Assembly: GCF_026683955.1 (NCBI RefSeq)
Contig: NZ_CP113343.1
Coordinates: 992,001-1,056,000, forward strand
Direction of reading: 5' to 3'
Source: Arthrobacter sp. MMS18-M83
Lineage (GTDB): Bacteria > Actinomycetota > Actinomycetes > Actinomycetales > Micrococcaceae
DNA length: 64,000 nt
Position numbers and translations under genes: made by a program. This document shows, one piece after another, positions 7,027 to 25,186 of this stretch. Position 1 is the first letter of the stretch. Every line of letters starts with the position of its first letter. The notes under the pieces were generated by a model. It did no database searches. It saw nothing but the letters and a program-made list of their open reading frames with translations, and was not told the DNA's origin.

Positions 7027-7110
7027 TGTAAGCGGCAACTTTAAACTGACCGGAGACGGCAAAACTGATTGACCGTTCGCGGCAGTGGTTTTGACCAGCG
7101 GCGGCAAGCA
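7027..7110. repeat. Left-end transposase-binding repeats of the IS21 element
   Basis: Three spaced copies of a TGACC-N4-5-CGGCA motif (starting near 7047, 7070 and 7092) form the left multiple-binding-site array. They mirror the array at the right end in inverted orientation. Confidence 0.75.
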
Positions 7111-7266
7111 TTTTTGAACAGCAGTCGGCCACTACGGGTGGCTTGGCGTGCCGGGATTCCCCCTTGTCCATTCCTCGTGTCGTTACGGGGAGAGCCCCTT
7201 CCTTCCGCGGTGAAATGGCGATGCCAATCGTGTATTTCACCCGTTGCGGGAAGGAAGGGGCTCGTT

Positions 7267-8835: not shown

Positions 8836-9613
8836 CACCATGTCCCCGCCCCTGACCGACGCGGCGGTGGAGCAGGTGATCGCGCTTATGCGCACGACCC
8901 GGATGCCGCACGCCCGCGCCGTCGTCGCCGATGTCCTGGCCACCGCGAAAGCCCAGCGCTGGGACCCCACCGAGGTCGTCCGTGTCCTGCTCGAAGCCGA
9001 AGCCACCGGTCGGAACGCCTCGATGCTGGCCACCCGGCGCAAACGCGCAGGTTTCCCCTCCGGGAAGACCTTCGATGTCTGGGACGAGGCTCTGTCCACC
9101 CTCCCGGCCGCAACGACATCGTTCCTGCGGACGCTGGAATGGGTGCGGCGGCGGGAGAACCTGATCGCGTGCGGGCCCTCCGGCACCGGCAAAACCCTGC
9201 TGCTGGAGTCCTTGGGCCAGCAGGCCATCGACCAGGGCATGTCCGTGTCCTGGCTGAGCATGGAAGACCTCGGTGCGCTCGTGCGCCGGCACCGCATCGA
9301 TGACAGCGTGAACAAAGCCATCACCCGGGCCACCAACGTGGATTTGATCTGCATCGATGACATCGGCCTGCTGCCGGTTTCCGCGGACTCGGCCGAGGGC
9401 TTCTACCGCGTCGTGGAGGCCTCCTACGAGAAGCGGTCCCTGGCGATCAGCTCGAACATCCACCCCTCCGGGTTCGATGAGCTCATGCCCAAAACCATCG
9501 CCACCGCGACCGTTGACCGGCTTCTCCACCACGCCCACCTCTGCCAAACCAGCGGCGAGTCCGTCCGGCTCATGCAAGCCCAGAACGGGAAAGGAACCCG
9601 CCCCATGAACTAA
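8825..9613 (+). CDS. istB: IS21-family helper ATPase IstB
   Basis: 262 residues of the DnaC/IstB AAA+ family. Walker A is GPSGTGKTLL near residue 120, Walker B is LICIDDIGLLP, followed by sensor-1-like ISSNIHPSGF. IstB selects target DNA and stimulates the IstA transpososome. The start inside the istA 3' end (ATGAGCGCTG) suggests translational coupling. Confidence 0.95.
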   Translation: MSADTMSPPLTDAAVEQVIALMRTTRMPHARAVVADVLATAKAQRWDPTEVVRVLLEAEATGRNASMLATRRKRAGFPSGKTFDVWDEALSTLPAATTSFLRTLEWVRRRENLIACGPSGTGKTLLLESLGQQAIDQGMSVSWLSMEDLGALVRRHRIDDSVNKAITRATNVDLICIDDIGLLPVSADSAEGFYRVVEASYEKRSLAISSNIHPSGFDELMPKTIATATVDRLLHHAHLCQTSGESVRLMQAQNGKGTRPMN

Positions 9614-9678: not shown

Positions 9679-9783
9679 ACTTGCCGCGACCGGTCAATCA
9701 CTTGCCGCCAGCGGTCAAACCAACATGCCGCCACCGGTCAAACCAACATGCCGCCACCGGTCACTTCTAAGTTGCCGTTGACA
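9679..9783. repeat. Right-end transposase-binding repeats of the IS21 element
   Basis: Four tandem, 22-23-nt units of the form A(C/A)(T)TGCCGCCA/G-CCGGTCAA-ACCA run up to the terminal TTGCCGTTGACA. They are the inverted counterpart of the left array. Their regular spacing reflects IstA binding sites and is not a CRISPR array. Confidence 0.8.
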
Positions 9784-9789
9784 GGTGCT
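9784..9789. repeat. Target-site duplication GGTGCT, right copy
   Basis: Pairs with 7021-7026 across the IS21-family element. Confidence 0.85.
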
Positions 9790-9886
9790 GCAGGCGGAGA
9801 ATCCTGCCTATCCGGACATCCGCGTCCCGGCGTTGTCGGACCTGGTTATTTGGGGTGTGGCCACCCGATGCCTTCATTACGTTTAG
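9784..9886 (+). pseudogene. umuD: umuD, 3' part beyond the IS21 insertion
   Basis: In the frame set by the target duplication this reads VLQAENPAYPDIRVPALSDL, then VIWGVATRCLHYV and a TAG at 9884-9886. This is the classic UmuD C-terminus (NPxYPDI and WGVAT). The first six bases are the right copy of the duplication. The remnant is untranslated in its present position. Confidence 0.9.
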
Positions 9887-9895
9887 GGCGGGGCC

Positions 9896-9951
9896 ATGTC
9901 TAAGCCGGCTGTGATGCGGCGGATGCCGCAGATCGCGCATGTGGATGTGAA
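9896..9951 (+). pseudogene. umuC: umuC, 5' fragment (first 18 codons)
   Basis: ATG at 9896, nine bases after the umuD stop, reads MSKPAVMRRMPQIAHVDVN. That is the start of a Y-family polymerase, ending just before the catalytic-strand motif DVxxFYAS. At 9948-9951 (TGAA) it breaks off. The continuation NCFYASAERAFDP is at 21104. The joined sequence GTG GAT GTG AAC TGC TTC TAC is a perfect UmuC N-terminus, with the first carboxylate Asp on the left side and FYASAE on the right. Confidence 0.88.
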
Positions 9952-9962
9952 TTTTCACTTCC

Positions 9963-10338
9963 CTCAAGAGTGTTGTTGTACGGCGCAACGTCCAAAGGGC
10001 GTCAGGTCGGGATCGGGGTCTAACGAGAGCCTCTCGCAGGCCGGCTCCTCGCAATACCAGCGGTACTTGGACCATAGGACCTCCACGGGTCCGGCGACGG
10101 GAATGTCCCGGATCCGCTGAAGCGGCGTTCCTTACGCCGTGACGCGACCGACCCCGCACGTGGGGCAGCCCGGCGGCTGGCCGGTCTCAGCGATGATCTG
10201 CCGGCATCCGGCAGTGATGGTGGTGGAGATGACAGGGTAGTCAGGCAGGTTGAAGAAGATGGTGGCAGCATCGGCCGCGACCCCGATAGCCTCGTTCAAG
10301 GCTCGTGGTCCTGTTCCAGGTTGAATGCTTAGACACAC
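9963..10338 (-). pseudogene. ISL3-family transposase N-terminal relic
   Basis: Read on the minus strand, one frame gives TIFFNLPDYPVIS and then a zinc ribbon GCPTCGVGRVTA followed by a stop. The next frame continues LQRIRDIPVAGPVEVLWSKY, then RWYCEEPACERLSL, and stops at 9963. These are the N-terminal zinc-binding region and the R.RDIPV.G..V.......C..P.C motif of ISL3 transposases. The catalytic part is absent. It lies just inside the left end of the element in umuC. Confidence 0.65.
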
Positions 10339-10442
10339 TCATCCCAGCAGGGCCACGGGCACTCTTGTCTTCAACGACACGAACTCAATTCCCCACGACC
10401 CACGAAGAGCCCATATAAGGCCTTTTTCGACATGATGGCTTC

Positions 10443-10670
10443 ATGGTCACTAACCCTTCCCCGCTCAATAAGAAGCAAGTCGAAGCCCTGCAGTGGATCC
10501 GTAATGGCCGCCTGAAAGGCATTTACGCGACGGGGTACCATCACAGGATCATTGCGAGGGCACTTGAGCGACGATGTCTGATGGAGATCAACGCGACCTC
10601 AGGATGGACTCTTTGTACGAAGTCTCATGATTCCGACGATCGTGAAAACTATGCCAAAGAGCACCGTTGA
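10443..10670 (+). CDS. Small hypothetical protein (75 aa)
   Basis: A polar protein starting MVTNPSPLNKKQVEALQWIR with a helical N-terminal region and no membrane segment. It has no family I recognise; such short KxxxALxWI proteins are common in phages and integrative elements. Its last 24 codons overlap, on the opposite strand, the end of the small membrane protein gene at 10599-10844, so one of the two may be spurious. No strong ribosome site is visible. Confidence 0.4.
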   Translation: MVTNPSPLNKKQVEALQWIRNGRLKGIYATGYHHRIIARALERRCLMEINATSGWTLCTKSHDSDDRENYAKEHR

Positions 10671-10844
10671 CAGTCCAGGCATAATTTTTCCGGTTGACAA
10701 GATCTGAGCAGTGCCGCTGATAATTCCGACAGCTGAAAGACAGATGAACCCATACCCAATGATGGTGTTCTGTCGTGAACGCTTAGGAGGCTGGTCCAAA
10801 CCTTTTCCCTTCTCTGGTGGAGATGTAATGCGTCCGCTGATCAT
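10599..10844 (-). CDS. Two-helix membrane protein coupled to rhs (candidate immunity protein)
   Basis: 81 residues: polar N-terminus (MISGRITSPPEKGKGLDQPP), two hydrophobic helices (IIGYGFICLSAVGIISG and MPGLSTVLFGIVFTIVGIM), and a short basic tail. Its ATG overlaps the rhs stop codon (ATGA), so translation is coupled. A small protein encoded immediately after an Rhs tip is normally the cognate immunity protein. The Rhs tip here is itself hydrophobic, so a membrane-located immunity partner would make sense. Function is inference from position only. Confidence 0.55.
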   Translation of the reverse strand: MISGRITSPPEKGKGLDQPPKRSRQNTIIGYGFICLSAVGIISGTAQILSTGKIMPGLSTVLFGIVFTIVGIMRLRTKSPS

Positions 10845-13800
10845 GAGGAACAGTCCTGAGATTGTTGGTATAACTCGTACGCGAAATCGATTCCGGCCAA
10901 AACAAAATCGGTTTCAGCCGGTATTAGCAAATCACCTAGCAGTCCAGATGCTACATCTGCGAGAATAGCGCCAGCGGCAAATAGAACGACGCCTCCAGCA
11001 ACTAATGCAGACAGCGCCGCGAACCCACAGTCAATCGAGTCCAAACCTGTCGGGTCTGTCGAGTTGACAGGGTTGCATTGAACATAACCGTATCGGTTGG
11101 CCTCTCGGTTGCTTGGATCTGCCTGGGTGAAGCGGCCTACTGAGGCGTCATAGTAGCGGGCTCCGAACTTCGTGTATCCGGTGGTGGCGTCTTTGTACCC
11201 GGCGGCGTATTGCCATGGATTTACTCCCGCTTGTGTGCCTGTCGCGCTGGTGTTTCCCCAGGAGTCGTAGGCGTAGCTCGCGGCGGAGGCCTGGGTGCTG
11301 TCGGTCAAGAGGATGGTGGAGCCGAGGGCGTCGGTCGTGTAGTAGAAGCTTGCCCCGCTGCTGCTGTTCCTCATGCTGACTAGTGTGCCGTTGGGGTCGC
11401 GGATGAAGGAAGTGGTTGCGCCGCCCGTTGTTTGTTGGGTGATGCCGAGGGTTCCGTTGAGGAAGCTGGTGGCTCCGGCGGTGAGGCGTTCGTCGTTGCG
11501 TGGTCCGGCGTAGCTGAAGTTGGTGGTGGTTCCGTTGGTGTAGCCGGTGAGTTGGTCGAAGGTGTTGTAGGACTGTGTGGCGGCGCCCGCTGTGGTGGTG
11601 TTGCCGTTGGCGTCATAGGCGTAGCTCGTGGCCCCGGTGGGGGCTGTGGTGCAGGTGCCGGTGCTGGCGCCGGTCCAGCAGAGCTGGTCGGCGGCGTTGA
11701 ACGCGGCGTACACGGTTGCGGCGCCGGTCTTGGTGGCCTGGGTGCGGTTGCTGTTGGCGTCGTAGGCCCAGGTTTCGGTGGTGGTTCCGGTGATGGCTGA
11801 GGTGAGGCGGTTGAGTTTGTCGTAACCGTAGGTGGTCGCGAGGCTGCCGTTAGGGGTCATCGTGGTGCGCAGGGCCCCATTCCCGCTTTGGGTGTAGGTG
11901 TAGGTGCTGCTGGCCAGGGTGGTGGCGCTGCTGTTCTTGGCCGAGATGGACAGGATCTTTCCTGCGTTGTCGTACACGGTGGTGTTGGTGACCCCATTGG
12001 GGTACTGGGTGGTGGTGCGCCGGTTGGCGTTGTCGTACCCGAAGCCGGTGCACATCGTGGCGTTCGGGAAGGCCGGGCTTGCCGGGCAGGACCCGCCGGG
12101 TTCGGCCAGGGAGATCAGCCGGTTCGCGGCGTCGTAGCCGTAGGTTACGGTGCCGAGCGGATCGACGTAGGTGAGGATGTTCGAGGCTCCGTCGTACGTG
12201 ACCGTGGTGGTGGTCCCGCCGATGGCCTTGCTCGTGGGCCGGTTCTGGGCATCCCAGGCGTACGTGGTGGTCCCGGCTGCGTCGACGCGTGTGGTGAGGT
12301 TGCCGGCGGCGTCGTAGGTGTAGGTGACGCAGGTTGCGGCCACGCAGGTGGCGCCGTAGCGGATTTGGGTGAGGCGGTCGTTGGCGTCGTAAGTGTAGGT
12401 GGCGGTCTGGCTCTTGCCGTCCGTGGCGGTGGCGATCCGTCCTGCAGCGTCGTAGGTGTAGGTGATGGTGCCCAGCGGCGCGGGCCTGGTCACTGTGATC
12501 GGGTTGCCGGCACTGTCGTAGGTGTAGCTGGTGGTGTTGCCGTTGCCGTCCGTGGACCGGCAGAGCTCGCCGGCTTTGGCGCCGCAGTATGTGGGTACGC
12601 TGTCTTGCTCGTAGAAGCGCTGCGGGGTGCCCCCGAGGTTATCCGGGGTAAGGATCTTGGAAGGCTCCTTGGTGTTCGCGTCGTACTGGATCGTGCTCGT
12701 GTTGCCTTCACTGTTGGTAGTCGTAGCGGGCCGGTAATTCAGCAGCGGGTCCCCGGTCGCCGTCGGATAGGTGAAGGATACGGACCCTGCCGTGCCGCTG
12801 GAGCCGGCCAGCGGGGAGGTGATCTTGGTGATGCTGTTGTTCGCGTTGTACGTCGTCGTGGCGGTCTGGCTCATCCCGTTGACGCTGGTGAGCCGGTTGT
12901 CGTGGCCATCGAAGGTGAATTGGTTTGTGTGTCCATTCGGGTCAGTGACCGTCGTGACGTGGGTTTTACTCGCGTCGAGGGTATAGGTGGTTTGCTTGCT
13001 GTTCGGGTCGGTGAGGTAGGACAGGGTCGGGCCGGTGTTGTGGGTGAGGGTCCAGGTCGCGGCTGCTGGGGATCCTTGGCCGTAGGTGATGGTGTTGACC
13101 CAGTTGTCAGCCGCGTACGCCAGAGCGGTGACGTTGCTGCGGCCGCCGGTGATGGAGGTCAGTTTGCCGTTGGTGTAGGTGAAGGTGGTGACCGCGCCGG
13201 TCGCGTCGGTGATCTTGGACATTTGGCCCTGCCCTCCGCCGTATTCGATGTTCACGGTCCGGTTCAGCGAGTTGTCCGTGATCGAGGAGGGCTGGTTCAG
13301 GTTCCGGGTGTCGTTGTAAGCGTAGGTGAAGAACCTGCCCTGGGTGTCCGAGGTCTGATTGAGCAGACCGTTGCTGTAGTAGTAGTCGACGTGGTTCGGG
13401 TTCAGTGCTTGCGAGTCGAAGGACTTGCCCAGCTCGAAGTTGCCGCTGTTGTCCCAATATTCGTTGGTGATGCCGGTGTCATTGAACCGCAGATCGAACA
13501 CACCGCTCTGGGTCTGGGTGAGGGAGGCGTTCAACCCGGGGGCCATGGTGTAGGTGGAGCCGGAGAGGACGAAGGTGTACCAGCCGCCGTCCGGGGCGAT
13601 ATAGATCATGTTCCCCGTGGACGGATCGGCCCGCATTCCGGATTCGAGCTTGCCCATGGACAAGGTGGGGCGCTGGTCGTATTTGCTGTTGTACCGCCAG
13701 GCGACATTCACGTCCTGGCCGATGCCCCGGACGTTGAACAGCCGACCGGTGAGTACGACGTTGCCATTGGTCGGGTTCACCTCGAGCTTGGAAGAGTCGG

Positions 13801-15256
13801 TAAGGGAATGGCTGACCATGGAGGCCGTGGCACGGGATCCGGAACCTGTCCCGTCGGAAGTGACTGGTGGCAGCAGGTTCGCGTTGCTGAACCAGCCTTG
13901 GGAATCGATGATGATGTTCACGGAACTGCTGCCGGCATTGAAGACCTTGATTTTGCCCGTGGTGGCGCTGGGCCGGACTATCACGACGTTCGAGGCGGAG
14001 TCCGAGCTGTAATTGACCGTGCTCAGGTTCGGTTCAGGCTCGTCCGAGGGCCAGACGCGCAGGTACCCGAAGCCGGAAGAGAGCGGGGTGATGTTCATCA
14101 TGACGCCGGCGACGTTGGTTGAGGCGGCGGGCAGTCCGCCTACTCCGGCGATCTGGACCTCGATCGTGGTGTTGGCGGGGATTGCGGTATTCGGGGCCAG
14201 GCGGGAATCGTAGAGCCGTGATTCGACCGTGGTGAAAGAGCTCGACGAAGAGACCTGGCCATCGAAGTACCCTTGGATGTCGATGAGAACGTTCACTCCC
14301 GGGGTGACGGATGCCCAATGCTTGATGTCCGTCACGCCCGCGGCGTTCAGATTCAGGACCGCGCCAATTGCCGTGGTCTGGTTGCCGCGGAAGTTGATCG
14401 TCGTCCCCGGATCGCTTCCGTTGGCGAACCAGCCCCCTGGAAGTGTTGCGAAGATGGGGTTGGAGGGGTCGGTGCTGATCACTGTGATGTTGGCGAAGAC
14501 AGCGGTCGCCGTGTCCGGGACCCCGCCTTTGCCTTTCAAGGTCACGGACTTGACTGCCGTCCCGGTCCAGGCGCCGGCCGGAAAGCCGGTCCCGTTACGG
14601 GTATCGACCACCCGCGACGTCGGCACGGACACGAAACCGCCCGGGGCCGGAGTGCTGCCCGAGGTGAAATAGCCCTGCACGTCAACAATGAACTGCTGCG
14701 AGGTGCTGGAGTAGAGAGCGAGCTTCCCGTCGCTGCCTACCGCGATGGCGGCTGAGTTCGAGATCGTGTCCCCGGTGCCGGAGAACAGTACGGTGGTGTC
14801 ATGGTGGCGTCCGCTGTTGGGCACGAGCTGCGCCGCGTTGGGCTGGGTTCCATTCACGATGGTCAAGCTCACCAGGACAGTGGCGACACCTGTGACCGGG
14901 ACCCCTGCCTGGCCCAGGATCTGAAAGGGATACCAGGTACCTGCGGCCACAGGGCCGGTGATCCCGCCCAGCCCGCTGCGGGTGTCCACGGCACGGCCCT
15001 GGCCCTCCACCGGGTAGAACACGCCGGCCTGTACTGAGGGGGTCGACTGCATCGGCGCTAGGGCTGGCGCTTGGGCTGAGGCCAGCCCAAGCGGCCCCGA
15101 TTGTGTGGAAGCGGGTGCGGCGAATGCCGGGGCGCTGAGCCCGTACACGCCAAGCGCGGCCGCAACAATTGCGGCAATAAGGATCCTGAAGGTCAGGAAA
15201 ACGACGGACATAGGCTGGAAAAAGGCAGGCTCGCGCCGGCTCCTGGCAATGGACAT
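10841..15256 (-). CDS. Secreted Rhs/YD-repeat protein with short hydrophobic C-terminal tip
   Basis: 1471 residues. A signal peptide covers about residues 1-47 (helix ILIAAIVAAALGVYGLSAPA, then FAAPA). Next come three roughly 120-residue beta modules, each with a (V/Y)DTR or YDSR motif and ending in DVQGYF, DIQGYF or DSQGWF (residues about 80-455). A linker follows, then about 25 RHS/YD repeats (YTYDAAGN..., residues about 600-1290) and the conserved Rhs core ending GYTKFGARYYDASVGRFTQA...NSTDPTGLD at about residue 1405. The remaining 66-residue tip is hydrophobic (ALVAGGVVLFAAGAIL) and unlike known nuclease tips. Such proteins encapsulate a toxin in a YD shell at the cell surface. It is cargo of the element in umuC. 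Confidence 0.9.
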   Translation of the reverse strand: MSIARSRREPAFFQPMSVVFLTFRILIAAIVAAALGVYGLSAPAFAAPASTQSGPLGLASAQAPALAPMQSTPSVQAGVFYPVEGQGRAVDTRSGLGGITGPVAAGTWYPFQILGQAGVPVTGVATVLVSLTIVNGTQPNAAQLVPNSGRHHDTTVLFSGTGDTISNSAAIAVGSDGKLALYSSTSQQFIVDVQGYFTSGSTPAPGGFVSVPTSRVVDTRNGTGFPAGAWTGTAVKSVTLKGKGGVPDTATAVFANITVISTDPSNPIFATLPGGWFANGSDPGTTINFRGNQTTAIGAVLNLNAAGVTDIKHWASVTPGVNVLIDIQGYFDGQVSSSSSFTTVESRLYDSRLAPNTAIPANTTIEVQIAGVGGLPAASTNVAGVMMNITPLSSGFGYLRVWPSDEPEPNLSTVNYSSDSASNVVIVRPSATTGKIKVFNAGSSSVNIIIDSQGWFSNANLLPPVTSDGTGSGSRATASMVSHSLTDSSKLEVNPTNGNVVLTGRLFNVRGIGQDVNVAWRYNSKYDQRPTLSMGKLESGMRADPSTGNMIYIAPDGGWYTFVLSGSTYTMAPGLNASLTQTQSGVFDLRFNDTGITNEYWDNSGNFELGKSFDSQALNPNHVDYYYSNGLLNQTSDTQGRFFTYAYNDTRNLNQPSSITDNSLNRTVNIEYGGGQGQMSKITDATGAVTTFTYTNGKLTSITGGRSNVTALAYAADNWVNTITYGQGSPAAATWTLTHNTGPTLSYLTDPNSKQTTYTLDASKTHVTTVTDPNGHTNQFTFDGHDNRLTSVNGMSQTATTTYNANNSITKITSPLAGSSGTAGSVSFTYPTATGDPLLNYRPATTTNSEGNTSTIQYDANTKEPSKILTPDNLGGTPQRFYEQDSVPTYCGAKAGELCRSTDGNGNTTSYTYDSAGNPITVTRPAPLGTITYTYDAAGRIATATDGKSQTATYTYDANDRLTQIRYGATCVAATCVTYTYDAAGNLTTRVDAAGTTTYAWDAQNRPTSKAIGGTTTTVTYDGASNILTYVDPLGTVTYGYDAANRLISLAEPGGSCPASPAFPNATMCTGFGYDNANRRTTTQYPNGVTNTTVYDNAGKILSISAKNSSATTLASSTYTYTQSGNGALRTTMTPNGSLATTYGYDKLNRLTSAITGTTTETWAYDANSNRTQATKTGAATVYAAFNAADQLCWTGASTGTCTTAPTGATSYAYDANGNTTTAGAATQSYNTFDQLTGYTNGTTTNFSYAGPRNDERLTAGATSFLNGTLGITQQTTGGATTSFIRDPNGTLVSMRNSSSGASFYYTTDALGSTILLTDSTQASAASYAYDSWGNTSATGTQAGVNPWQYAAGYKDATTGYTKFGARYYDASVGRFTQADPSNREANRYGYVQCNPVNSTDPTGLDSIDCGFAALSALVAGGVVLFAAGAILADVASGLLGDLLIPAETDFVLAGIDFAYELYQQSQDCSS

Positions 15257-15354
15257 CCCCCACGGACTTTCTACGAAAAAGCCCCCACTGCGTTCATCAA
15301 CGAAAAGCCAGGAGCCTCGAGACCAATGATGGGACGAGGCTAAATTACCCGCGA

Positions 15355-15383
15355 ATAGTAAGCAAGCTTTTTATTCATGACAA
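15355..15383 (-). promoter_or_regulatory. Candidate sigma-70-type promoter of rhs
   Basis: On the minus strand, TTGTCA (15378-15383), a 17-nt spacer and TACTAT (15355-15360), about 95 nt before the rhs start. The -35 matches five of six and the -10 four of six consensus bases. The surrounding 60 bp are much more AT-rich than the rest of the element. Confidence 0.4.
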
Positions 15384-15522
15384 AAAGTGTAAAGTTGATC
15401 GGCGAAAGCGGTCTCAAAGCTGAGAACGGGCCAGATCTCTCGCTGAAAAATGCTCTACTGCGACCTTCGGTTCGAACATGCCGTGCCCGCGCAGACTCGC
15501 CGGCGCGCAAAATGGTCTAAGG

Positions 15523-15960
15523 TCAGGCGTTCTCAAAGTCTTTGGGATTGCCATGGCCAGGCCGACCTCCCGGACGCAGTGGCGTGACGTTGCCGGAGGA
15601 CCGCAGCCGGTCCAGTAGCCGGTCGCGTTCTTCGGTGACTGCCAGCAATGCCGCGGCGTAGTTGCGCAGTTGTCGGGCCAGCGCGTCGCGTTCCTGGGCG
15701 AGTCGGCCTGCGCGTTCTCGCTCCTCGGCGAGTTGCGTGCGTAGAGCATCGACTTCAGGTTTGCTCCGATTGATCTGCCGCGCACGTTCTTGGAAGGCTG
15801 CGTTGATGTCCGGGTTGGCGAGGGTTAATCGGTGCCGTTTGACCCCTGCCAGTTCGGCCAGGCGAACGCCGGTCAGCGGCCCGGTTGCGCGGCCTTCCAG
15901 GAGGTCGTCGGCGGCTTTCTGAAGTGCTTCGCGGATGGTGTTGGGATCAGCGTGTGTCAT
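15523..15960 (-). CDS. DUF6262 / TnpC-like accessory transposition protein
   Basis: 145 residues, mostly helical. An N-terminal segment (IREALQKAADDLLEGR...GVRLAELAGVKRHRLTLANP) resembles a small DNA-binding fold. It is followed by a long coiled coil (about residues 60-120, heptad Leu/Ala with QLAEERERAGRLAQERDAL). DUF6262 proteins are found as the last gene of Tn554-type recombinase operons, where TnpC influences orientation and frequency of transposition. It overlaps the upstream recombinase stop by 4 nt. Family assignment is from memory of this pattern. Confidence 0.7.
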   Translation of the reverse strand: MTHADPNTIREALQKAADDLLEGRATGPLTGVRLAELAGVKRHRLTLANPDINAAFQERARQINRSKPEVDALRTQLAEERERAGRLAQERDALARQLRNYAAALLAVTEERDRLLDRLRSSGNVTPLRPGGRPGHGNPKDFENA

Positions 15961-18059
15961 CCTCGTCCTTGCTCGTGGTCGTTAATGATTCCGTTGAGGC
16001 GGTCACTAACCTGCCGGGTGCGTTCGTAACGGATCGGGGGCGCGAGTCTGTCTTGGGCGAGCCGGTCCAGGGTGGCTTGGAGTTCGAGGATGTCGTTGTC
16101 GGTGCGGGCGATGTTGGTGCAGGCGCTGCGGCACTGGCCGAGGTTCGGGCTGTTCGCTTGCCGCGCACAGAGCGCTGTTGCCTGGTCGAAGACGCAATGC
16201 AGTCCATCGCCTTTGAAGATCTGCAGTGACGGGTCCTGAAGGAGCTTCTCGGCTTGGCGGCGGGTGGGGAGGGTCCGGCCGGCGAACTTCGCGGCGGCAC
16301 CGCTGGTGCGTTCGCGTAGCTTGTCTGCGGCGGGGCCGCTGACGTTCCCGCCGGCCTTGAGGTAGCCATCGATGTTCGTGATCCGCTCGATGCGCTCCAG
16401 CCATCGCTCCATGGCGAGCTCATTGGGGAACCCGGAGTCGTAGCTGCCGGAGTATCCCTGCGTCACGAGGTCGGCAACATGACCGTATTGGATGGCAGCG
16501 GCCACCAGGCCACGGGGGCGCCGGACGATGTGCCAGGCGAGGGTGCGGCGGAAGCGGCTGGGAGTGATGCGACCATCCGGATCCTCCGGGATGCGGTCCC
16601 TGCGCTGACTATCCTGACAGTACTCGTTGACCCAGCGGACGAAGGAGGCGATGTCACAGGTGGTCTTCGCGGTGGTCTGCCCGTTGCCGGCACGTCCGTC
16701 GGTTCGCCCGGTGGTCCAGCGCACGGCCTGCGGGCGCAAGGTACGCGGGAAGAGCAGGTCCATGGAATGGAGTCGTTCGAGCACGTCGACAGCGTGGGCG
16801 GCCAGCGGGTGGACGATCCAGGGGTTGTGCCGTGGCTGCCCCTCGGGGGCTTTGCTTCCTTCAGGGGTGCGCGCGCCCTTCCATCTGGTGCCGTGTAGTT
16901 CATGCAGGTTCGTCCGAGGATCCTGTCGGTGGCATTGTCGCTGTAGGTTCAGCACCTCGCCGGGGCGCATGCCGGACAGGTAGGCGATGACGATGAAGCA
17001 GGCGGTCTGCAGGTGCACTGCCAGCGGAACGGCTTCCTCCCAGGCGATGAAGGGGTCGTGCCAGAGGCGTCCGTCCAGCTGCGCCGTGCATCTGACCGTG
17101 AGGTAGCTTCCGGCGTCCACGGTCAAGCCGCTGCCCTCGACGATCTCTCGATCGTAGAGGGTGTGGGTGGAGCCTACGAATCCGGTGAGCCTGGCCAGAT
17201 GGGTCCAGTTGATGATGGGTTCACCGTCGGGCCCGGGCTGTCCAGGCAGACCCAGCCCCTGTTCCCGCAGGCCCTCGAGGACGGCGCGCAGGATTGGTTT
17301 GCGGGACCCTGTGGCTGGCGTTTGGCGGGCTGCTGCTGGGGTATGCCGGTGCCCGCTGCCGAGCAGTGCACAGTACTGGTGGTAGGCGGCGGTGATGTCG
17401 GGGGCGAAGTCCTCGATGAAGCGGATGGCCCAGGACAGCAGCGGGATGAGGGTCTTGTCGCCGATGCGCGGAGTGAGGTTTCCCGGTCTCTTGTGTCGGT
17501 GGGCAAGCAGGTCCCCGGCCGTTTCTTCCTGCCACGGAGAACCATCCGGCAGTCGGAGCCGGGGCGGCACGAGGTCCCGGTAGGCCCAGAGCCGTCTGGT
17601 TTCGGTGATGACCCGGCGCTTTTGGGCGAAACCGAGATCCGTTTCGCCCAGCTCGGCCAGGAACCGATCAAGCAATTGCGGGCTCGCGGCCTGGAGGGAG
17701 TTGTGGCCGTGCTCGTTGAACCAGGAGACGAGGCGCCGCAGGTGCGTCGGGACGTGGGAGATGCTGGAGAGGGCCAGAGGCCTGGGTGCGCTGGGTCCAC
17801 CCTGCACGGCTCGAGGCGTCTCGTCGTTGATCAGAATCCAGAAATAGGCCTTCACCGGCTGCTGCCAGGCGGACGGGAAGTGGCGGAAATTGACGCTGTA
17901 TTTCTGCGAATGGTCTTCGAAGATGGCTGGGGTGAGGTCCCAGACGGCGTCTGCGAAGCGGGAGAGCACAGCAGGGGAGGTACCTTCGCGGAGGGGGCGT
18001 CGGGCGAGTACCACGTCATCGTCGACCGGACTTGGTCGCTGCAGCAGATCGGGAATCAT
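15957..18059 (-). CDS. Large tyrosine recombinase (third gene of the recombinase operon)
   Basis: 700 residues. The catalytic tyrosine-recombinase domain is in the second half. Arg I is in YLSGMRPGEVLNLQ, the HxxR box is degenerate (RFRRTLAWHIVRR), the following histidine region is IQYGHVADLVTQGYSG, and the tyrosine there is a candidate nucleophile. The C-terminus has cysteines (LHCVFDQATALCARQ, NLGQCRSACTNI) that may bind zinc, as in TnpB-like recombinases of Tn554-type elements. Start and stop overlap its neighbours by 4 nt (ATGA), so the operon is tightly coupled. Confidence 0.82.
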   Translation of the reverse strand: MIPDLLQRPSPVDDDVVLARRPLREGTSPAVLSRFADAVWDLTPAIFEDHSQKYSVNFRHFPSAWQQPVKAYFWILINDETPRAVQGGPSAPRPLALSSISHVPTHLRRLVSWFNEHGHNSLQAASPQLLDRFLAELGETDLGFAQKRRVITETRRLWAYRDLVPPRLRLPDGSPWQEETAGDLLAHRHKRPGNLTPRIGDKTLIPLLSWAIRFIEDFAPDITAAYHQYCALLGSGHRHTPAAARQTPATGSRKPILRAVLEGLREQGLGLPGQPGPDGEPIINWTHLARLTGFVGSTHTLYDREIVEGSGLTVDAGSYLTVRCTAQLDGRLWHDPFIAWEEAVPLAVHLQTACFIVIAYLSGMRPGEVLNLQRQCHRQDPRTNLHELHGTRWKGARTPEGSKAPEGQPRHNPWIVHPLAAHAVDVLERLHSMDLLFPRTLRPQAVRWTTGRTDGRAGNGQTTAKTTCDIASFVRWVNEYCQDSQRRDRIPEDPDGRITPSRFRRTLAWHIVRRPRGLVAAAIQYGHVADLVTQGYSGSYDSGFPNELAMERWLERIERITNIDGYLKAGGNVSGPAADKLRERTSGAAAKFAGRTLPTRRQAEKLLQDPSLQIFKGDGLHCVFDQATALCARQANSPNLGQCRSACTNIARTDNDILELQATLDRLAQDRLAPPIRYERTRQVSDRLNGIINDHEQGRG

Positions 18060-19514
18060 CGCAGGTCCAATCCGCCGTCCAGCACCATCTCGACCAGACG
18101 GCGGTCCTCGTTACTGGCTTGCTCGGCTGCAACCATGGGTCCGGTGTGCTGCCGCTCGAGCAGATCGGTCAGCTGCTCCGAAGGGATGGAGAAGCGTTCC
18201 TCCCACTCCGCGGCGGGAATCTCGGCGCGGCGCCGGGTGATGCTTTCGAGCATCACGGCCTGGATCGGAATGTGCCTGGGTTCGGAGCGTGCGTTCGGGC
18301 AGCCAAGGCACAGCAGGAACGAGGCACTGCACGCGGTCCCGGACGGTGTGTAGGGGCTGTTCGTGTGGTCGATGCAAGCGGCGGCCACCGTGTCCAGACG
18401 GCCTTCAAGCAGCAGCCGCAGGCGCTCCACGGTTGTTCCAAGCCTCCGCGCCGCCGGCTCGGGATCGTCCGACGCTTCCCGCGCTTCGGCGTCGGTGAGA
18501 ACGAGGATGCTGTGGCTGACGCGGATGCGTTCCACCTCGCCGTGCAGCGCCTTGTCGACGATGACCTGGTATTCGGGCAGAGCGGTGGCGTCTTTGGCAA
18601 GGTATTGCGCCGCGAGCGTCGTCGCACTGTGGGCGACCGGGCGCTGATGGCGCTGCACGAACGCCAGCCTGAGTCGGCGCGAGTCCACCCGCGCGAGGAG
18701 GTCCCCGTCAGGGGTCCTCCCGCGCCACCACTCCAATGCGTGAGTGGGCAGCGCCCGGATCCGGGCCCCGCCTGGAATGCGGTCGGCCGGGCCCGTGGCG
18801 TGGAACACCAGAAGAGCGTCCGTGCCTGCCGGAGGTGTCGATCTTGCCGTCGCGGACCCGGGGCACATCCCCGGTGCGTGCCACCAGTGCGAGCAGCGCG
18901 CCACGGCGTCCAGCCTCCGCATCCGCGCCCGGCCCTGCTGTCTCCCATTCCTTGAGCTCCGCCTCCGCCTCCCGGATTCGGGTCAGCGCGGCACGGACCT
19001 CGGCTCGCGCGGCCCGCTGGATACGGCGCACTTCGGAATCGGTGTACGCGGACAGGGTCCGTGCCTGGGACGCTGGCCGGTGGGGCGCGTAGAGTGCTTC
19101 GCGGAATGCGGTCGGGAGGCCTTCGACCGGCCGGAAAATGACCCGGAGCACCTGAAGCAGGGAGTCCGCATAACGGGTATGCCGGATTCTGAACGGTGCG
19201 ATGTGCGCAGGCGTCAGTGCACTGAGCGACTGCGGTGGGGTGGGCAGTTCCTTCAGACTGCGGGCGAAGATCCGGGCACCTGCGTACAGGGTCTTCACGG
19301 ACTCCACGGTCTTTCGGGTCCCGGCCGGGCCGCAGGCGCGGGCGAAGCCCTTCGCGATGGCCCACTCGATCTCGGGTGCGAGACCGAGCCGACGGAATTC
19401 GAAGTCCTTTGCGGTTCCGCCGGACTCGGGCACAAAGCGGACAATGAGGCGCTCTCCCGCGTCGATGACGGCTTCGGGCCGCGTATACGGTCCCTTCGGC
19501 AGCGAGGCACGCAT
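18056..19514 (-). pseudogene. Middle recombinase-operon protein, frameshifted
   Basis: Two overlapping frames (19514 down to about 18830, then about 18840 down to 18056) make one protein of roughly 485 residues. The break is in DGKIDT | PPAGTDALLVF around 18820-18850. The N-terminal part resembles a core-binding SAM-like integrase domain. The C-terminal part carries a Cys cluster (CIDHTNSPYTPSGTACSASF, then LCLGCPNA) common in companion proteins of such operons. No complete RHRY set is visible, so it may be a non-catalytic partner. It is spaced 2 nt from the first recombinase and overlaps the third by 4 nt. The shift is real decay or a sequence error. Confidence 0.7.
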
Positions 19515-19516
19515 CC

Positions 19517-21040
19517 TCAGAGCTCCTTTTCGGTCTCATCGAGCAGCCGCACCCTGGGGTCGCTGGAGAGGACTGCGAGCAACGACTCCGCATCGAGAAC
19601 CGATCTGCCGTACTCCAGCAGTAACCGGGCCTCCAGCCCCCGGAACGGCTCAAGGTAAACATTCTTCGTCGTGTTCACATCCGAGTGGCCCAGCATCGTC
19701 TGCACCAGCGACCAGGTATCGCCGAACTGCTCGCGCAGATCGCGTTGATGCTCGGCCTCCAGCCCGTCGACCTGCCGGGACCAGATGAGCCGTCCGACGG
19801 CGAACCAGCGCAGAGCGAAGCTGTGCCGCAACATATGGGGTCGGCATTCGAGCCGGTCGATGCCGGCCTTCCTCACGCGGGTGTTCGCGCGCGCAAAAGA
19901 CTTATGCCACGCAGTCTTTGGCCTGGGGCTGCCGTCTTCGTTAAGCCACAGCATGGCCGGTTCAAGCCCGTCCGTGGTGCGCACCATCAGGCGAAGTCTC
20001 TCCCTCGGGGTCAGATCGTTGACCTGGACCGCCGAAAGGAAGGACTTCCCGCCACGAAATGTGCTCACTCTCAACACCCCGCGCCGGACCTCCTCGACGA
20101 CCATCCGCCCACTCATCACCTCGTATAAGCCGCTCGCCCGGGCAGAGCGCACCGCTGTTGCACGCTCCGTCTCCCGGTAGGCTGCCACTTGCTCCAGCAC
20201 GTCGCCCCGCAGCCAATAGGGATGCCCGTGCATCCCCTTCGCGCAGGCATCCGCCAGCCGGAACGACGCGTACTGGCTGTTCGGGACTTCGCGGTCCAGC
20301 TCAAGCACCAGGACGCTGCTCCATTCCTGCAGACGAAGCCCGCCACCGTACAAGCCGTCTGCGAAAGCCGCGTCCCGCGACTGGGAACGGGGACGCCACC
20401 TCGCACGCTCCGACCCCAGCGGCGTCAAACCGTGAATCCCGACATCGCGCCAGCGGCGGTATGCCCGCGGCGAAAGCCATTTGACGTCCGCTCCGCGGAT
20501 TGTCGATGGCCGCAAATCCGTGCCGCGGGCGCCTCGTCCGGCCGAGGCCATCCGGAAGGCGCCTGCGTCAGCGGCGGGAATCAGCGGCGGGCCACCCATG
20601 ACTCGGCTGGACCAGTCGTAGAACATGGTCAGCGCTGCGAGATCGCTGGCCCACGCCGAGCCGGAAATGCGGCGCGGGTTGCGTGGGTCGCTGCGGCGCC
20701 AGAACTTGAAATCCATGACATCGTCTTCGACCGTGGAATCCCAATCCTTGCCGCGCGCCGCGAGGAAGTTCACCCACACCGACAGTGAGTACGCGTACCT
20801 GCGATTCGTCGCTGCGGCGCGGTTGCGCATCTTCGCCCCGGCGAAGAATCGGTTCAAGGCCGCGTGGGGGGCTCCGGTCTTGTCGAGGAAGATCGGACGA
20901 CCCGCCCACGGTAGCCATGCGCCCGACGCATCATGATCATCCGCCGATGCACCCAGCGCACGGTCAAGAAGTTTATCGCCTGCCCAATCGATCCGATCGG
21001 GGGCGAAGAAGACCTGCCACAACGTCCGCTCATCCGTCAT
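19517..21040 (-). CDS. Tyrosine recombinase / transposase A (first gene of operon)
   Basis: 507 residues from MTDERTLWQ; an in-frame ATG at 21088 would lie only 13 nt from the element end. The N-terminal core-binding domain is residues 60-160. The catalytic residues are complete: Arg in YGGGLRLQEWSS, Lys in RGGKSF, HMLRHSF (HxxR), LGHSDVNTTKNVYLEP with the final His and nucleophile Tyr. It should cut and rejoin the element ends and the umuC target. As in Tn554, the gene nearest one end is the canonical recombinase and two further genes follow with minimal spacing. Confidence 0.88.
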   Translation of the reverse strand: MTDERTLWQVFFAPDRIDWAGDKLLDRALGASADDHDASGAWLPWAGRPIFLDKTGAPHAALNRFFAGAKMRNRAAATNRRYAYSLSVWVNFLAARGKDWDSTVEDDVMDFKFWRRSDPRNPRRISGSAWASDLAALTMFYDWSSRVMGGPPLIPAADAGAFRMASAGRGARGTDLRPSTIRGADVKWLSPRAYRRWRDVGIHGLTPLGSERARWRPRSQSRDAAFADGLYGGGLRLQEWSSVLVLELDREVPNSQYASFRLADACAKGMHGHPYWLRGDVLEQVAAYRETERATAVRSARASGLYEVMSGRMVVEEVRRGVLRVSTFRGGKSFLSAVQVNDLTPRERLRLMVRTTDGLEPAMLWLNEDGSPRPKTAWHKSFARANTRVRKAGIDRLECRPHMLRHSFALRWFAVGRLIWSRQVDGLEAEHQRDLREQFGDTWSLVQTMLGHSDVNTTKNVYLEPFRGLEARLLLEYGRSVLDAESLLAVLSSDPRVRLLDETEKEL

Positions 21041-21103
21041 GCGCCCATGATGTCGGCGGGATCTGCCAAAGATGGGCAACACGCCCAAAGGGGGTGGAGA
21101 ATG

Positions 21104-22188
21104 AACTGCTTCTACGCCTCGGCCGAGCGGGCGTTCGACCCGTCCCTTGAGGGCCGGCCCGTCATTGTGCTGTCCAACAATGACGGCTGCGCGGTCACCC
21201 GCTCCCCCGAGGCCAAAGCCCTGGGCATCCCGATGGGTGAGCCGTGGTTCAAGCTCGCCCCCAGGGCGAAGGAATGGGGACTTGTTGCCCTGTCGAGCAA
21301 TTATGAGCTCTACGGGGACATCAGCGCCCGGGTGATGGAGCTGCTGGGCCGGTACTCGGCATGGCTGGAGGTCTACAGCATCGACGAGGCCTTCCTCGGC
21401 GTTAAAGGCACCCCGGCCGAGCTACTGGCTCTTGGTCGGTCCATGAAGGCTGCCGTGCGGCGGAACGTCGGGGTTCGGTCTGTGTCGGGATCGCCGCCAC
21501 GAAAACCCTGGCGAAGCTGGCGAACAAATGGGCGAAGAACAACCCGGCGTTCGGCGGGGTCTGCCACTGGGACTCCGTCCCGTTGCCCGAACGGGAGGCT
21601 CTGATGGGGCGCCTGTCCGTGGTGGAGATCTGGGGTGTCGCGACCCGGCTGACCAGGCGGCTGAACGTGATGGGCATCTTTTCGATCCTTGACCTGTCCC
21701 GGGCCGATCCGGTGATGATCCGGGACCGGTTCTCCGTGGTCATGATGCGCACCGTCCTGGAACTGCAGGGCACCCCCTGCATTCCGATGGAGGAAGAACG
21801 GATCGGGCGGGATCAGCTGATCTTTTCCCGTTCCTTCGCCAAGCCCATCACCACCGCGGCCGGGATGCGGCAGGTTTTGAGCGTGTATGGGCAGCAGGCC
21901 TCGGCGCGGCTGGCCAAACATGACCTGCAGGCCAAAGTCCTCACCGCGTTCGCCGGCACCTCACACTTCAATCCCAAAGACACCTCCTACCCCTCGGTGT
22001 GTGTCCCGCTGCCGATGCCCACCGCGGACCCAGTCATTCTCACCAAGGCTGCTCACGCGCTCCTGCCCCTGATCAATGAGGGAATCCGGTACGCCAGGGC
22101 CGGGATCATGGTCACAGACCTGCGCCCGACCGGCAAACAGGCGCCGCTGTCCCTGTTTGAGAACCCGCACGAGCCCCGGTTCTCCTGA
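21104..22188 (+). pseudogene. umuC: umuC, 3' part, with an additional frameshift
   Basis: Y-family DNA polymerase body. It starts NCFYASAERAFDPSLEGRPV, then LSNNDGCAVTRS (nucleotide-binding loop), YSIDEAFLGV (second pair of carboxylates), ATKTLAKLANKWAK, IWGVATRLTRRL (helix-hairpin-helix) and a C-terminal little-finger domain ending FENPHEPRFS. The frame changes at about 21475-21477: VRRNVG.. must join VCVGIAATK, which needs one more C in GTTCGG. The first 18 codons are 11 kb away at 9896. The gene is doubly inactivated. Confidence 0.9.
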
Positions 22189-22224
22189 AGCTGTCATGAG
22201 GTGCCAAACGCTAGAGTGAGGGGC

Positions 22225-25186
22225 ATGTCTTCGGGAATGCCTGCTGATGCGATCTTGACGGATTGGACTCTGGTCGAGGCTGACTGGGCCCTGGTTGGCG
22301 CGAAGACAGGGTCTACTCGCCTCGGGTTTGCGTTGCTCCTGAAGTTTTTTGAGCGAGAGGCGCGTTTCCCCCGCTATCCGGGAGACTTTGCCGCCGAGGA
22401 GGTTCAGTACGTTGCAGAGCAGGTCAGGATCGCACCGGATTCGCTGAAAGACTTTGATTTTTCCGGGCGTACGGCCAAGAGGTTCCGCGTCCAGATTCGT
22501 ACTTCGTTTGGGTTTCGTGAGTTCGCGGCAAAAGACGAAGCCGGGGTGGCAAGTTGGCTGGCAGAGCGGGTGTGCCCTTCCGAGGTCCGTGACTCCGCCT
22601 TGGTTGAGGCCCTGCTCCTTCGGTGTCGTCAGGAACGGCTGGAGCCACCGGCAAGGATCTCGCGAATCGTCGGAAGTGCACGGACTCTATTCGAACAGCG
22701 GCTTTGTTCTTCGGTGCTCGAATGCCTTGACGCTGATGGTGCCAAGCGGCTTGAAAGCTTGTTGGACGGCGATGCGTCGGGGTCCTTGTTGTCAACGTTG
22801 AAGGCTGATCCGGGACCGGCCGGGCTTGAGGCTCTTCTTTCTGAAGTGGGGAAACTTGCTGCGGCCCAGGCTTTGGAGCTGCCAGGTGCGCTGTTTGACG
22901 GTGTCTCGGAGAAGGTCGTGAGCGCGTGGAGGGCGCGGGCTTCCCGGATGTATCCGTCGGATTTATGGGAAGCGCCGCGACCGGTGCGTCTGACGTTGTT
23001 GGCTGCGTTGTGTCATCAGCGCACGGCGGAGATCGCTGACAGCTTGGTTGATCTGTTGCTCGTTTTGGTGCTGAAGATTAACACCAGCGCCGTGAGGAAG
23101 GTTGAAAAGGAACTCACTGCGGACTTGCAAATGGTCCGCGGTAAGACGGCTCTGCTGTTCCGTCTGGCCGAGACTGCTGTGGGGAATCCGGATGAAACGG
23201 TGAGGAACGCGGTCTTTCCGGTGGTGAGCGAGAAGACGCTTCGGCAGCTGGTGCGGGAATCCAGGGCAAACGAATCGGCATTCCAAGGCAAGGTCCGGGT
23301 GGTCCTGCGCGGATCCTACTCAAGCTATTACCGCCGGATGTTGCCGGCGTTACTGTCGGTACTGCGGTTCCGGTGCCACAACACGGCGTTCAGGCCGGTG
23401 ATGGAGTCGATCGATCTCTTGAACAGGTACGCGCTGGCGGGAAGCAAGGCGCAATACTTCAGCCCGGAGGACGACGTTCCTATTGCCGGCGTGGTTCCGA
23501 AGAATTGGGTCACGGCAGTCCGGGACGAAAAGGGCAGGGTCGAGCGGATACCTTACGAGCTGTGCGTGCTCGTTGCTTTACGGGATGCGTTGCGCCGGCG
23601 CGAGGTTTTCGTCGACGGTGCCGGTAAATGGCGGGATCCGGAGGACGATCTGCCCCCGGACTTCGAGGCCTCCCGTGAACTCCACTACGAAGCCCTGCGC
23701 AAGCCCTTGGACCCGGCTCAATTCATCGCAGACCTGCAATCCAGGATGGCCCAATCGCTGCACACGCTGGACCGTGCTCTCCTGACGGATACCGCCGGAG
23801 GAGTCAGCATTACCCGGCGGAAGGGCGCACCCTGGGTGAAGGTTCCCAAGCTCGAGAATCTCGAAGAGCCTGCCAACCTTGGCCGGCTCAAAGACGAGGT
23901 ACTGGCCAGGTGGGGAACTTTGGACCTTCTGGAGGTCCTGAAGGAGGCTGACTTCCTGGCCGCGTTCACGCCGGGATTTACCTCGATCGCGTCAAGGGAA
24001 GTTCTCGGCAAGGACGCGCTCCGCCGCCGGCTGCTGCTGTGTCTGTTCGGGCTGGGCACGAACATGGGCATCAAAGCGATCGCTGACGCCGGCGGTCACT
24101 CCGAGACCGAACGGGAACTACGGCACGTGCGCAGAACCTACATCACCAAAAGACAACCTGCGGCAGGCCATCGTGAATGTCGTCAACGCAACCTTTGAAG
24201 CACGAAACCCTGAATGGTGGGGAGAAGGAAACGCCTGCGCCTCGGACTCGAAGAAGTTCGGCTCCTGGGAATCGAACCTCATGACCGAATGGCACAACCG
24301 CTACGGAGGGCCCGGGGTGATGATTTACTGGCACGTCGACAAGAAATCGACCTGCATCTACTCGCAGCTGAAGAACTGCTCCTCATCCGAAGTCGCTGCC
24401 ATGATCGAAGGGGTCCTTCGGCATAACACTGACGCCGAGATCGAGGCGAACTACGTCGATACCCATGGCGCCTCGATGGTGGGCTTCGCCTTCACCGAGC
24501 TCCTCGGATTCAAGCTCTTGCCCCGGTTGAAGAACATCGGATCGATCAGGCTTTACCGGACAGACAACGAGGTCAACCACTCAGAGATTGGCCCGGTCCT
24601 CAGCCGCGCCATCAACTGGGACATCATTGCCCAGCAGTACGATCAGATGGTCAAGTACGCCACGGCCCTCAAACTCGGTACTGCGGAGTCGGAAACAATT
24701 CTGCGCCGCTTCACCCGGGGAGGACCAAAGCATCCGACGTACCAGGCGCTCGAGGAACTCGGACGCGCCGTCCGGACCATCTTTGCCGCCGACTACCTCG
24801 CCAGCGAGAGTCTGCGCCGGGAGATCAACTCGGGTCTGCAGGTAGTGGAGAACTGGAACAGCGGCAACGACGTGGTGTTCTACGGCAAGAACCGTGATCT
24901 GACCGGCGCCGACCGGGAAACCACCGAAGTGTCCATGCTCGCCCTGCACCTGCTGCAATCATCCCTGGTGCTGGTGAACACCCTGCTGCTGCAAACCATC
25001 CTGGAAGAGAAGGAATTCAACGACCTGCTGGGCCCCGAGGACCGCCGCGGTCTCACGCCGCTCTTCTGGACGCACATCAACCCTTACGGAAGCTTCAAGC
25101 TCGACATGACCAGCAGCCTCGAACTCGGCCCACCAGCTCCGAAGCCAGCGCAAACAGGCGTCCCGCCACGGGTACCGGTCCCATAA
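22225..25186 (+). pseudogene. tnpA: Tn3-family transposase TnpA, single-base frameshift
   Basis: About 987 residues if joined, the normal Tn3 length. The first frame (22225-24198) holds the DUF4158-type N-terminal domain and the start of the DDE domain. The second (to 25186) continues [21 protein letters not shown] (first Asp), [20 protein letters not shown] (second Asp) and ends [19 protein letters not shown]. The frames join after YITK at a run of four A (24148-24151) where three would read [11 protein letters not shown]. It starts 36 nt after umuC. I could not find the 38-bp terminal inverted repeats, so the element ends are unknown. Confidence 0.85.

Follow-up and report, generated by a model that had tools for sequence, protein, structure and literature searches.

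We describe here an 11,148 bp element that splits the umuC gene of Arthrobacter sp. MMS18-M83 at codons 18-20. The element occupies positions 9954-21101 of the stretch of 64,000 nucleotides that was analysed (the window; contig NZ_CP113343.1, G000:C1:992001-1056000), which forms part of a 5.1-Mb genome of two contigs. UmuC is a mutation-making DNA polymerase, and the mutagenesis is part of the SOS response. The element is very likely a site-specific member of a multi-integrase class, related to the SE, GInt and Tn554 elements, which uses a conserved active-site stretch of umuC for attachment and has an rhs gene as its cargo. SEs are strand-biased circularizing integrative elements (PMC10214605, PMC9345347; these and the papers cited below are used from extracts). 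The features discussed are the following:

9896..9947, plus strand: left piece of the target gene umuC (codons 1-17 plus base 1 of codon 18)
9948..9953, no strand: intA-distal core, TGAATT
9954..9985, no strand: intA-distal element end
10022..10412, minus strand: insertion sequence (IS)-like fragment inside the element, which we take to be ISL3-type; many same-genus matches end at 10412
10599..10844, minus strand: open reading frame of 81 residues, a predicted membrane protein that overlaps the rhs stop codon; no Pfam match
10841..15256, minus strand: rhs, 1471 residues, with Rhs repeats, an Rhs core to residue 1405 and then a 66-residue tip
15523..15960, minus strand: small recombination protein gene, 145 residues, in the position of srap/ginD/tnpC
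15957..18059, minus strand: intB, large tyrosine recombinase of 700 residues (R..R..H..Y by eye)
18056..19514, minus strand: companion gene, 597-640 residues in relatives and lacking the first catalytic Arg; here partly deleted, with a frame change
19517..21088, minus strand: intA, tyrosine recombinase of 523 residues (RHRHY by eye; Pfam Phage_integrase and SAM-like)
21070..21101, no strand: intA-proximal element end
21102..21107, no strand: intA-proximal core, TGAACT
21108..22188, plus strand: remainder of umuC, frameshifted at ~21440-21480, with its terminal stretch gone

Element ends and empty umuC sites

The umuC gene starts with the ATG at 9896, is interrupted after GTG GAT GTG AA (9951) and resumes at TGAACTGCTTC, from 21102 onward. 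An initial annotation, made from the window alone, had placed the two halves about 11.15 kb apart, and both the distance and the position of the pieces are confirmed. It had also proposed looking for empty sites in related genomes. Of 59 relatives searched with the umuC 3' piece, 35 matched, and 30 loci were compared (L013-L042, the window being one of the 30). The 25 loci that could be aligned over the junction, all of the same genus, were uninterrupted (25/25). L039-L042, which gave no usable alignment there, were left out of this count; note that in L041, from another family, the gene seems by eye to run on across the junction. The 5' piece is identical to L016 at 50/54 bases and the 3' piece at 88%, so both pieces fit one gene, as had been proposed. 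The claim that the halves rejoin exactly holds at the junction but not for the gene as a whole, since the umuC body is frameshifted and a 3' stretch is missing.

The boundaries were taken from the aligned ends of related elements. The end motifs are conserved across elements; the alignment took in six for which both ends are present and four represented by a single end. The intA-distal end of the window element (TTCACTTCCC...GTGTTGTTG) aligned with the distal ends of the elements in G710, A. bambusae, P. oxydans, G717 and G035, and the intA-proximal end reads inward TTCTCCACCCCC...GCGTGTTGCC. Each end adjoins a 6-bp core. At the 25 empty umuC sites this core was TGAACT (13), TCAACT (11) or TCAATT (1); the proximal core of the window is the commonest of these, and its distal core, TGAATT, occurs in none (0/25). 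In the six two-ended elements the proximal/distal cores are TGAACT/TGAATT (window), TGAACA/TGAACA (G710), TCTACT/TCTACT (A. bambusae), TTTACA/TCTACA (P. oxydans), CCTACG/TGTAGT (G717) and CATCAA/CGTGAA (G035, ligase strand). Thus two of the six pairs are identical and four differ, by 1, 1, 4 and 2 bases. A target duplication, including a simple 4-bp duplication of TGAA, would give identical cores and was rejected. The TGAA repeat of the initial annotation thus corresponds to two cores of 6 bp, which may differ from one another.

In SE-6945 the 6 bp at the intA end are those of the target and the 6 bp at the far end those of the donor (PMC9345347). The window element would agree with this rule: among native cores TGAACT is the most frequent, and TGAATT was found in 0/25 empty sites. 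The unequal cores of four of the six elements fit a donor footprint of the SE/Tn554 type, its direction being suggested by the analogy with SE-6945. In G717 the reading frame of the interrupted dprA gene is kept by the proximal core only. No donor of the distal core was seen.

These data suggest the following model. IntA and IntB, together with the companion and the small protein, would recombine both ends across the 6-bp core to form a circle, which would then join a matching core in a new umuC, often a plasmid-borne one. Of the two cores, the intA-proximal one would be native to the target and the intA-distal one would come from the donor. The rhs gene would have been captured from the gene pool of the genus. 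The copy has since decayed, its companion gene losing about one third of a kb and umuC acquiring a frameshift. Plasmid-borne umuC is common in these genera (28 plasmid records at >=60% identity, those listed all being from Arthrobacter, Pseudarthrobacter, Paenarthrobacter or Glutamicibacter), which would help such elements to spread.

Targets and cargo of the related elements

We searched 395 Micrococcaceae-family genomes (that of the window included) with IntA, and 33 matched at E<=1e-3, many of them weakly. The closest IntA (71% identity) was that of G710, which belongs to another genus. Its element, of 12,217 bp (L124 5828-18044), lies in umuC at the VDVN codons, which is the site of the window element, with umuC on both sides, and its IntA groups as sister to that of the window (support 100/100) in a tree built from 24 such proteins. 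This finding, together with elements at further umuC motifs, upholds the proposal that umuC is a specific target. At the YSIDEAF motif of umuC we found two elements that have umuC sequence at either end, that of A. bambusae DP-A9, of 7,684 bp, and that of P. oxydans USM2, of 17,620 bp, as well as partial cases in G675 (only the 3' part of umuC) and G501 (only ~50 UmuC residues beside the element). These four fall in three places of the tree: A. bambusae groups with P. oxydans, G675 with the ligase-site element of ISL-30, and G501 near the window. The LSNNDGC motif of umuC was used in one genome, G503, with a distant IntA. In G666 (L077), umuC is joined to the interior of intA, the decayed deletion derivative of an element inserted in umuC.

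Other targets were also identified. The gene for an ATP-dependent DNA ligase is struck at one motif in ISL-30, Hiyo8 and OM7 (OM7 by Pfam, the others by eye), and at a second motif in the genome of the window itself (~957 kb), G802 and G035 (G035 by Pfam, the others by eye). The copy in the window's own genome (L122, G000:C1:950000-969000) is a second, distant element of the same class, located in the ligase gene ~50 kb away, and its intB is apparently frameshifted. In G717 and the Streptomyces-like G1091 one half of dprA stops at position 82 of the Pfam model and the other starts at position 83, and the dprA insertion of Rhodococcus AW25M09 looks alike by eye. Further targets were ligA in G1017 and an ABC permease gene, presumably PstA-like, in G1200. 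Loci L046, L048-L050, L132-L136, L139, L140, L143, L144 and L152 gave no firm target by eye and were left off this list. Most of the firmly identified targets are DNA-metabolism genes struck in conserved coding motifs, for which the simplest reason is that a DNA word made up of conserved codons recurs from host to host.

The cargo differs from element to element. It starts ~105-335 bp beyond the small gene in L120, L124 and L126, and in the window rhs begins 266 bp beyond the end of this gene. The G710 element carries merB and a MerA-like reductase gene, and no rhs. That of P. oxydans encodes, by Pfam, AraA, a kinase of the FGGY family (araB-type) and an enzyme of the GH36/melibiase type, with araD and sugar ABC genes recognized by eye. 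The G717 element (L126 3151-15828), in dprA, encodes two Pycsar cyclases along with a whole PycTM and part of another, which is anti-phage defence cargo. Finally, the distant ligase-site element of G035 holds, between its ends, rhs sequence from residue 744 on and a second rhs tail. Rhs as cargo, which in combination with umuC as target would be a distinctive form according to the initial annotation, does lie between the element ends, but it is one cargo among several (mer, an L-arabinose cassette, Pycsar defence genes). Both Rhs and Pycsar genes are thereby shown as travelling cargo. In G035 (L123 11608-16656) we also observed that the incomplete rhs and the second tail are accompanied by an 81-residue membrane open reading frame without a match to that of the window.

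The Rhs core was found in all six loci searched (6/6, from five places, as L105 lies inside L123), whereas the Rhs tip and the 81-residue open reading frame matched in none at E<=0.01 (0/6), a weak test given such short queries. A conserved core with a variable tip is the pattern of a polymorphic toxin, and toxin activity is predicted on these grounds. The protein shares with the Rhs polymorphic toxins its secretion, YD repeats, Rhs-associated core, short variable tip and a small gene over the stop codon, but its tip and the small open reading frame belong to no named family. From its position, the latter is a candidate immunity gene. Rhs is probably an interbacterial competition factor, predicted to have its own small membrane immunity protein.

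It is possible, if rather doubtful, that the block is a composite, in which rhs and the IS-like fragment entered a smaller, already inserted element in separate events. The IS-like fragment does lie between rhs and the distal end. Moreover, rhs copies occur elsewhere in the genus with none of these integrases within 1.5 kb, as in G017 and G028, whose Rhs core shares 70% identity with that of the window. Both ends, however, are of one element type with rhs between them, and the G035 element also holds rhs sequence between its ends. Capture of cargo would in any case be expected, and is compatible with a multi-integrase element that carries rhs.

The four-gene operon and its place among known elements

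The intA, companion, intB and small genes are all on the minus strand, with overlapping or touching ends. The recombinase operon and rhs are as first annotated; not so the companion gene, which is broken, and the small protein, which had been assigned to DUF6262. With HMMER filters on, none of the four small proteins scanned, including that of the window, matched DUF6262 in Pfam at E<=10, and this identity is withdrawn. The window companion gene lacks ~330-355 bp (~353 bp relative to A. bambusae, 332 bp relative to G710, from alignment coordinates): its middle is absent, and its N- and C-terminal parts are in different frames, the switch lying near 18830-18870. All four recombination genes are reported to be essential in GInts (PMC5385486), and so are intA, tfp, intB and srap in SEs (PMC10214605). 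By analogy, since the companion is damaged, the window copy is predicted to be immobile unless helped, and is probably immobile now. The view that this is a working element is therefore not supported.

In the aligned operons (13 loci searched) and in three proteobacterial plasmids, a companion of ~600 residues lies between both recombinases. The plasmids were compared using profiles from the actinobacterial operons against a set of 12 proteins. In Sinorhizobium sp. M14 pSinB (E 6e-77, 1e-23, 3e-77, 4e-11) and Serratia ureilytica pCC119 (E 3e-43, 2e-23, 6e-45, 3e-8) the four genes matched one-to-one, in the same order; in Sphingobium UT26 pCHQ1 the first three genes match and the fourth does not. 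On pSinB (L162 2706-12226), a mer operon adjoins the small gene of this alphaproteobacterial operon. IntA matched at E<=1e-30 in 22/394 genomes (the window's included) of a class-wide sample, and its nearest named relatives are from Arthrobacter, Pseudarthrobacter and Paenarthrobacter. Among 72,556 plasmid records, 194 matched IntA (E<=1e-5), 110 the A. bambusae companion (E<=1e-3) and 257 the window IntB (E<=1e-2).

With the SEs these elements share the gene order, in which intA, a companion without the first catalytic Arg (tfp), a large intB and a small gene (srap) are coupled (motifs by eye), as well as one 6-bp core per end that may differ between ends, few selected targets and variable cargo. 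The sizes also agree, the SE median being 15.7 kb, against 7.7-17.6 kb in the six elements compared. They differ in host, SEs being reported from Gammaproteobacteria only (PMC10214605, PMC9345347), and the SE authors report no homologues of Tfp and Srap from outside this class (PMC10214605).

Several results weigh against the class assignment or its details. SEs have imperfect inverted terminal motifs, C and C'; here the end motifs are conserved across elements but, taken alone, the window element has an inverted repeat no better than that of shuffled sequences (11,319/20,000 shuffles reach its score), so its ends rest on the comparison with relatives, and neither a circle nor excision of the element was seen. 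SE Tfp is described as having no RHRY, whereas the companions seem by eye to retain the later R/H/Y-like residues, which places them nearer to the described GinC. Profile-profile comparisons of the companion with IntA, of IntB with IntA and of the companion with IntB gave nothing, and a search of solved structures with the companion and IntB gave no match. The AlphaFold models of the two were poor (mean pLDDT 57, 62), and Foldseek returned nothing at E<=0.001, the best rows for IntB being Cre at E 0.36 and worse. As to decay, frameshifts can reflect sequencing error, a companion-gene deletion of this size hardly so. Finally, the placement among SE, GInt and Tn554 relies on published descriptions; by these, the operon may be of the SE or the GInt kind or represent a further family.

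That the element is a GInt in the strict sense (ginA-ginB-ginC-ginD) is unlikely. Like the elements described here, GInts have four essential recombination genes in an operon at one end, varied cargo straight after the small gene, imperfect core repeats of 6 nucleotides and several targets, and GinC, like gene 2 here, lacks the first Arg (PMC5385486). This Arg-less protein is the third in GInts, though, and the second here, the GInt order being that given in two papers. Homologues of GInts are reported from many phyla (Alpha-, Beta- and Gammaproteobacteria, Bacteroidetes, Firmicutes and Verrucomicrobia, no Actinobacteria being named in the extract; PMC5385486). In Alphaproteobacteria, which are among the hosts of the present family, the SE authors detected no ginC-ginD block (PMC10214605), yet the GInt authors reported GInts there, so host range is not decisive and was dropped as an argument.

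We regard it as quite unlikely that the operon is a separate unnamed family with SE order, one that is neither SE nor GInt, occurs in Proteobacteria as well as Actinobacteria and repeatedly re-aims among the conserved motifs of DNA-repair genes. The sites counted would be three umuC motifs, two ligase motifs and the same dprA codon in distant genera. If this were true, insertion and excision would turn SOS mutagenesis, ligation or DNA uptake off and on.

The extracts also describe other integrase elements in these hosts. The umuDC genes of three Arthrobacter plasmids are disrupted by XER modules with variable cargo (2018; PMC6305408), which like the window element are integrase modules found in Arthrobacter umuDC; the paper places the module between umuC and umuD. 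In our comparison, XER-type modules split umuC near residues 73-76, after WFKLAP, a further conserved stretch, in pA8H1 (L164) and in Brevibacterium pAP13 (L166), and in pA2H2 the module is placed before umuC. The splitting module of these two genera has three genes, of ~344-384, 115-118 and 828-864 residues. We rejected the identity of the window element with an XER module: the XER operon (373, 116 and 828 residues) consists of an integrase, an XRE-type regulator and an ~830-residue integrase, its umuC position is different, and only IntA matches its proteins, weakly (11.5 bits, E 4e-5, 8 proteins), the other three profiles giving nothing. Integrase elements of at least two kinds thus use umuC as a landing gene.

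A strict Tn554-family transposon (TnpA, TnpB, TnpC), as in the actinobacterial class described in 2012, with the companion overlooked or extra, is improbable: it would account for the 6-bp footprint, the specific target and the small last gene, and that class has actinobacterial hosts, including Arthrobacter and Mycobacterium, and couples an abnormally long recombinase (611-828 residues) and a short one (~350) with a TnpC-like partner (PMC3414803), but the text describes two adjacent recombinases without a companion, and no targets in that section, strict Tn554 has no companion gene (PMC10214605), the ~600-residue companion lies between the recombinases in our loci, IntA of this family has ~500 residues and not 350, and the place on pNL1 matched by IntB has the order 463, 595, 741 residues. 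The initial label "Tn554-type" is therefore acceptable in the loose sense of this related class and not supported in the strict one.

Publications already describe actinobacterial integrase elements and the insertion of an integrase module into umuDC of Arthrobacter; this four-gene operon in umuC was absent among the literature matches listed. What is new is a four-gene operon for which comparison has defined the ends, the 6-bp cores, the targets and the cargo. With three umuC motifs, two ligase motifs and dprA in distant genera, this one operon family provides a natural series for asking how tyrosine recombinases change their target.

The broken umuC gene and its surroundings

Compared with all four aligned relatives (4/4), the body of umuC has a one-base frameshift at ~21440-21480. 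Its 3' end is cut off and followed by an open reading frame for a Tn3-type transposase (by Pfam). A search of the whole genome for UmuC yields, apart from the broken gene itself, only a C-terminal fragment of 76 residues and a pair of distant Y-family relatives (27% and 34% identity). The sole UmuC-type polymerase found in this genome is dead, having been destroyed by such an element.

At 21086-21103 the element end provides a G-rich stretch as well as an ATG that reads in frame into the remaining umuC (AAAGGGGGTGGAGAATG). The element end could thereby supply umuC with a new ribosome site and start. Such a product, however, would be without the Asp that we take to be a metal ligand, and umuC is frameshifted.

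The umu operon is damaged on both flanks. Upstream, an IS21-type istA/istB pair (7069-9613, Pfam) is directly followed by what is presumably the tail of umuD (~9780-9889), given its resemblance to the sequence preceding umuC in relatives; umuD looks to have been cut too. Directly behind the truncated umuC, the Tn3-type frame (22201-24198) contains DUF4158 and the start of DDE_Tnp_Tn3. A 23-bp tandem repeat of 3.7 copies lies at 9682-9763. From 9700 onward the sequence, probably the IS21 end, recurs at six other places in the genome, at four of them with 90-92% identity over 82-89 bp and at two over a shorter length.

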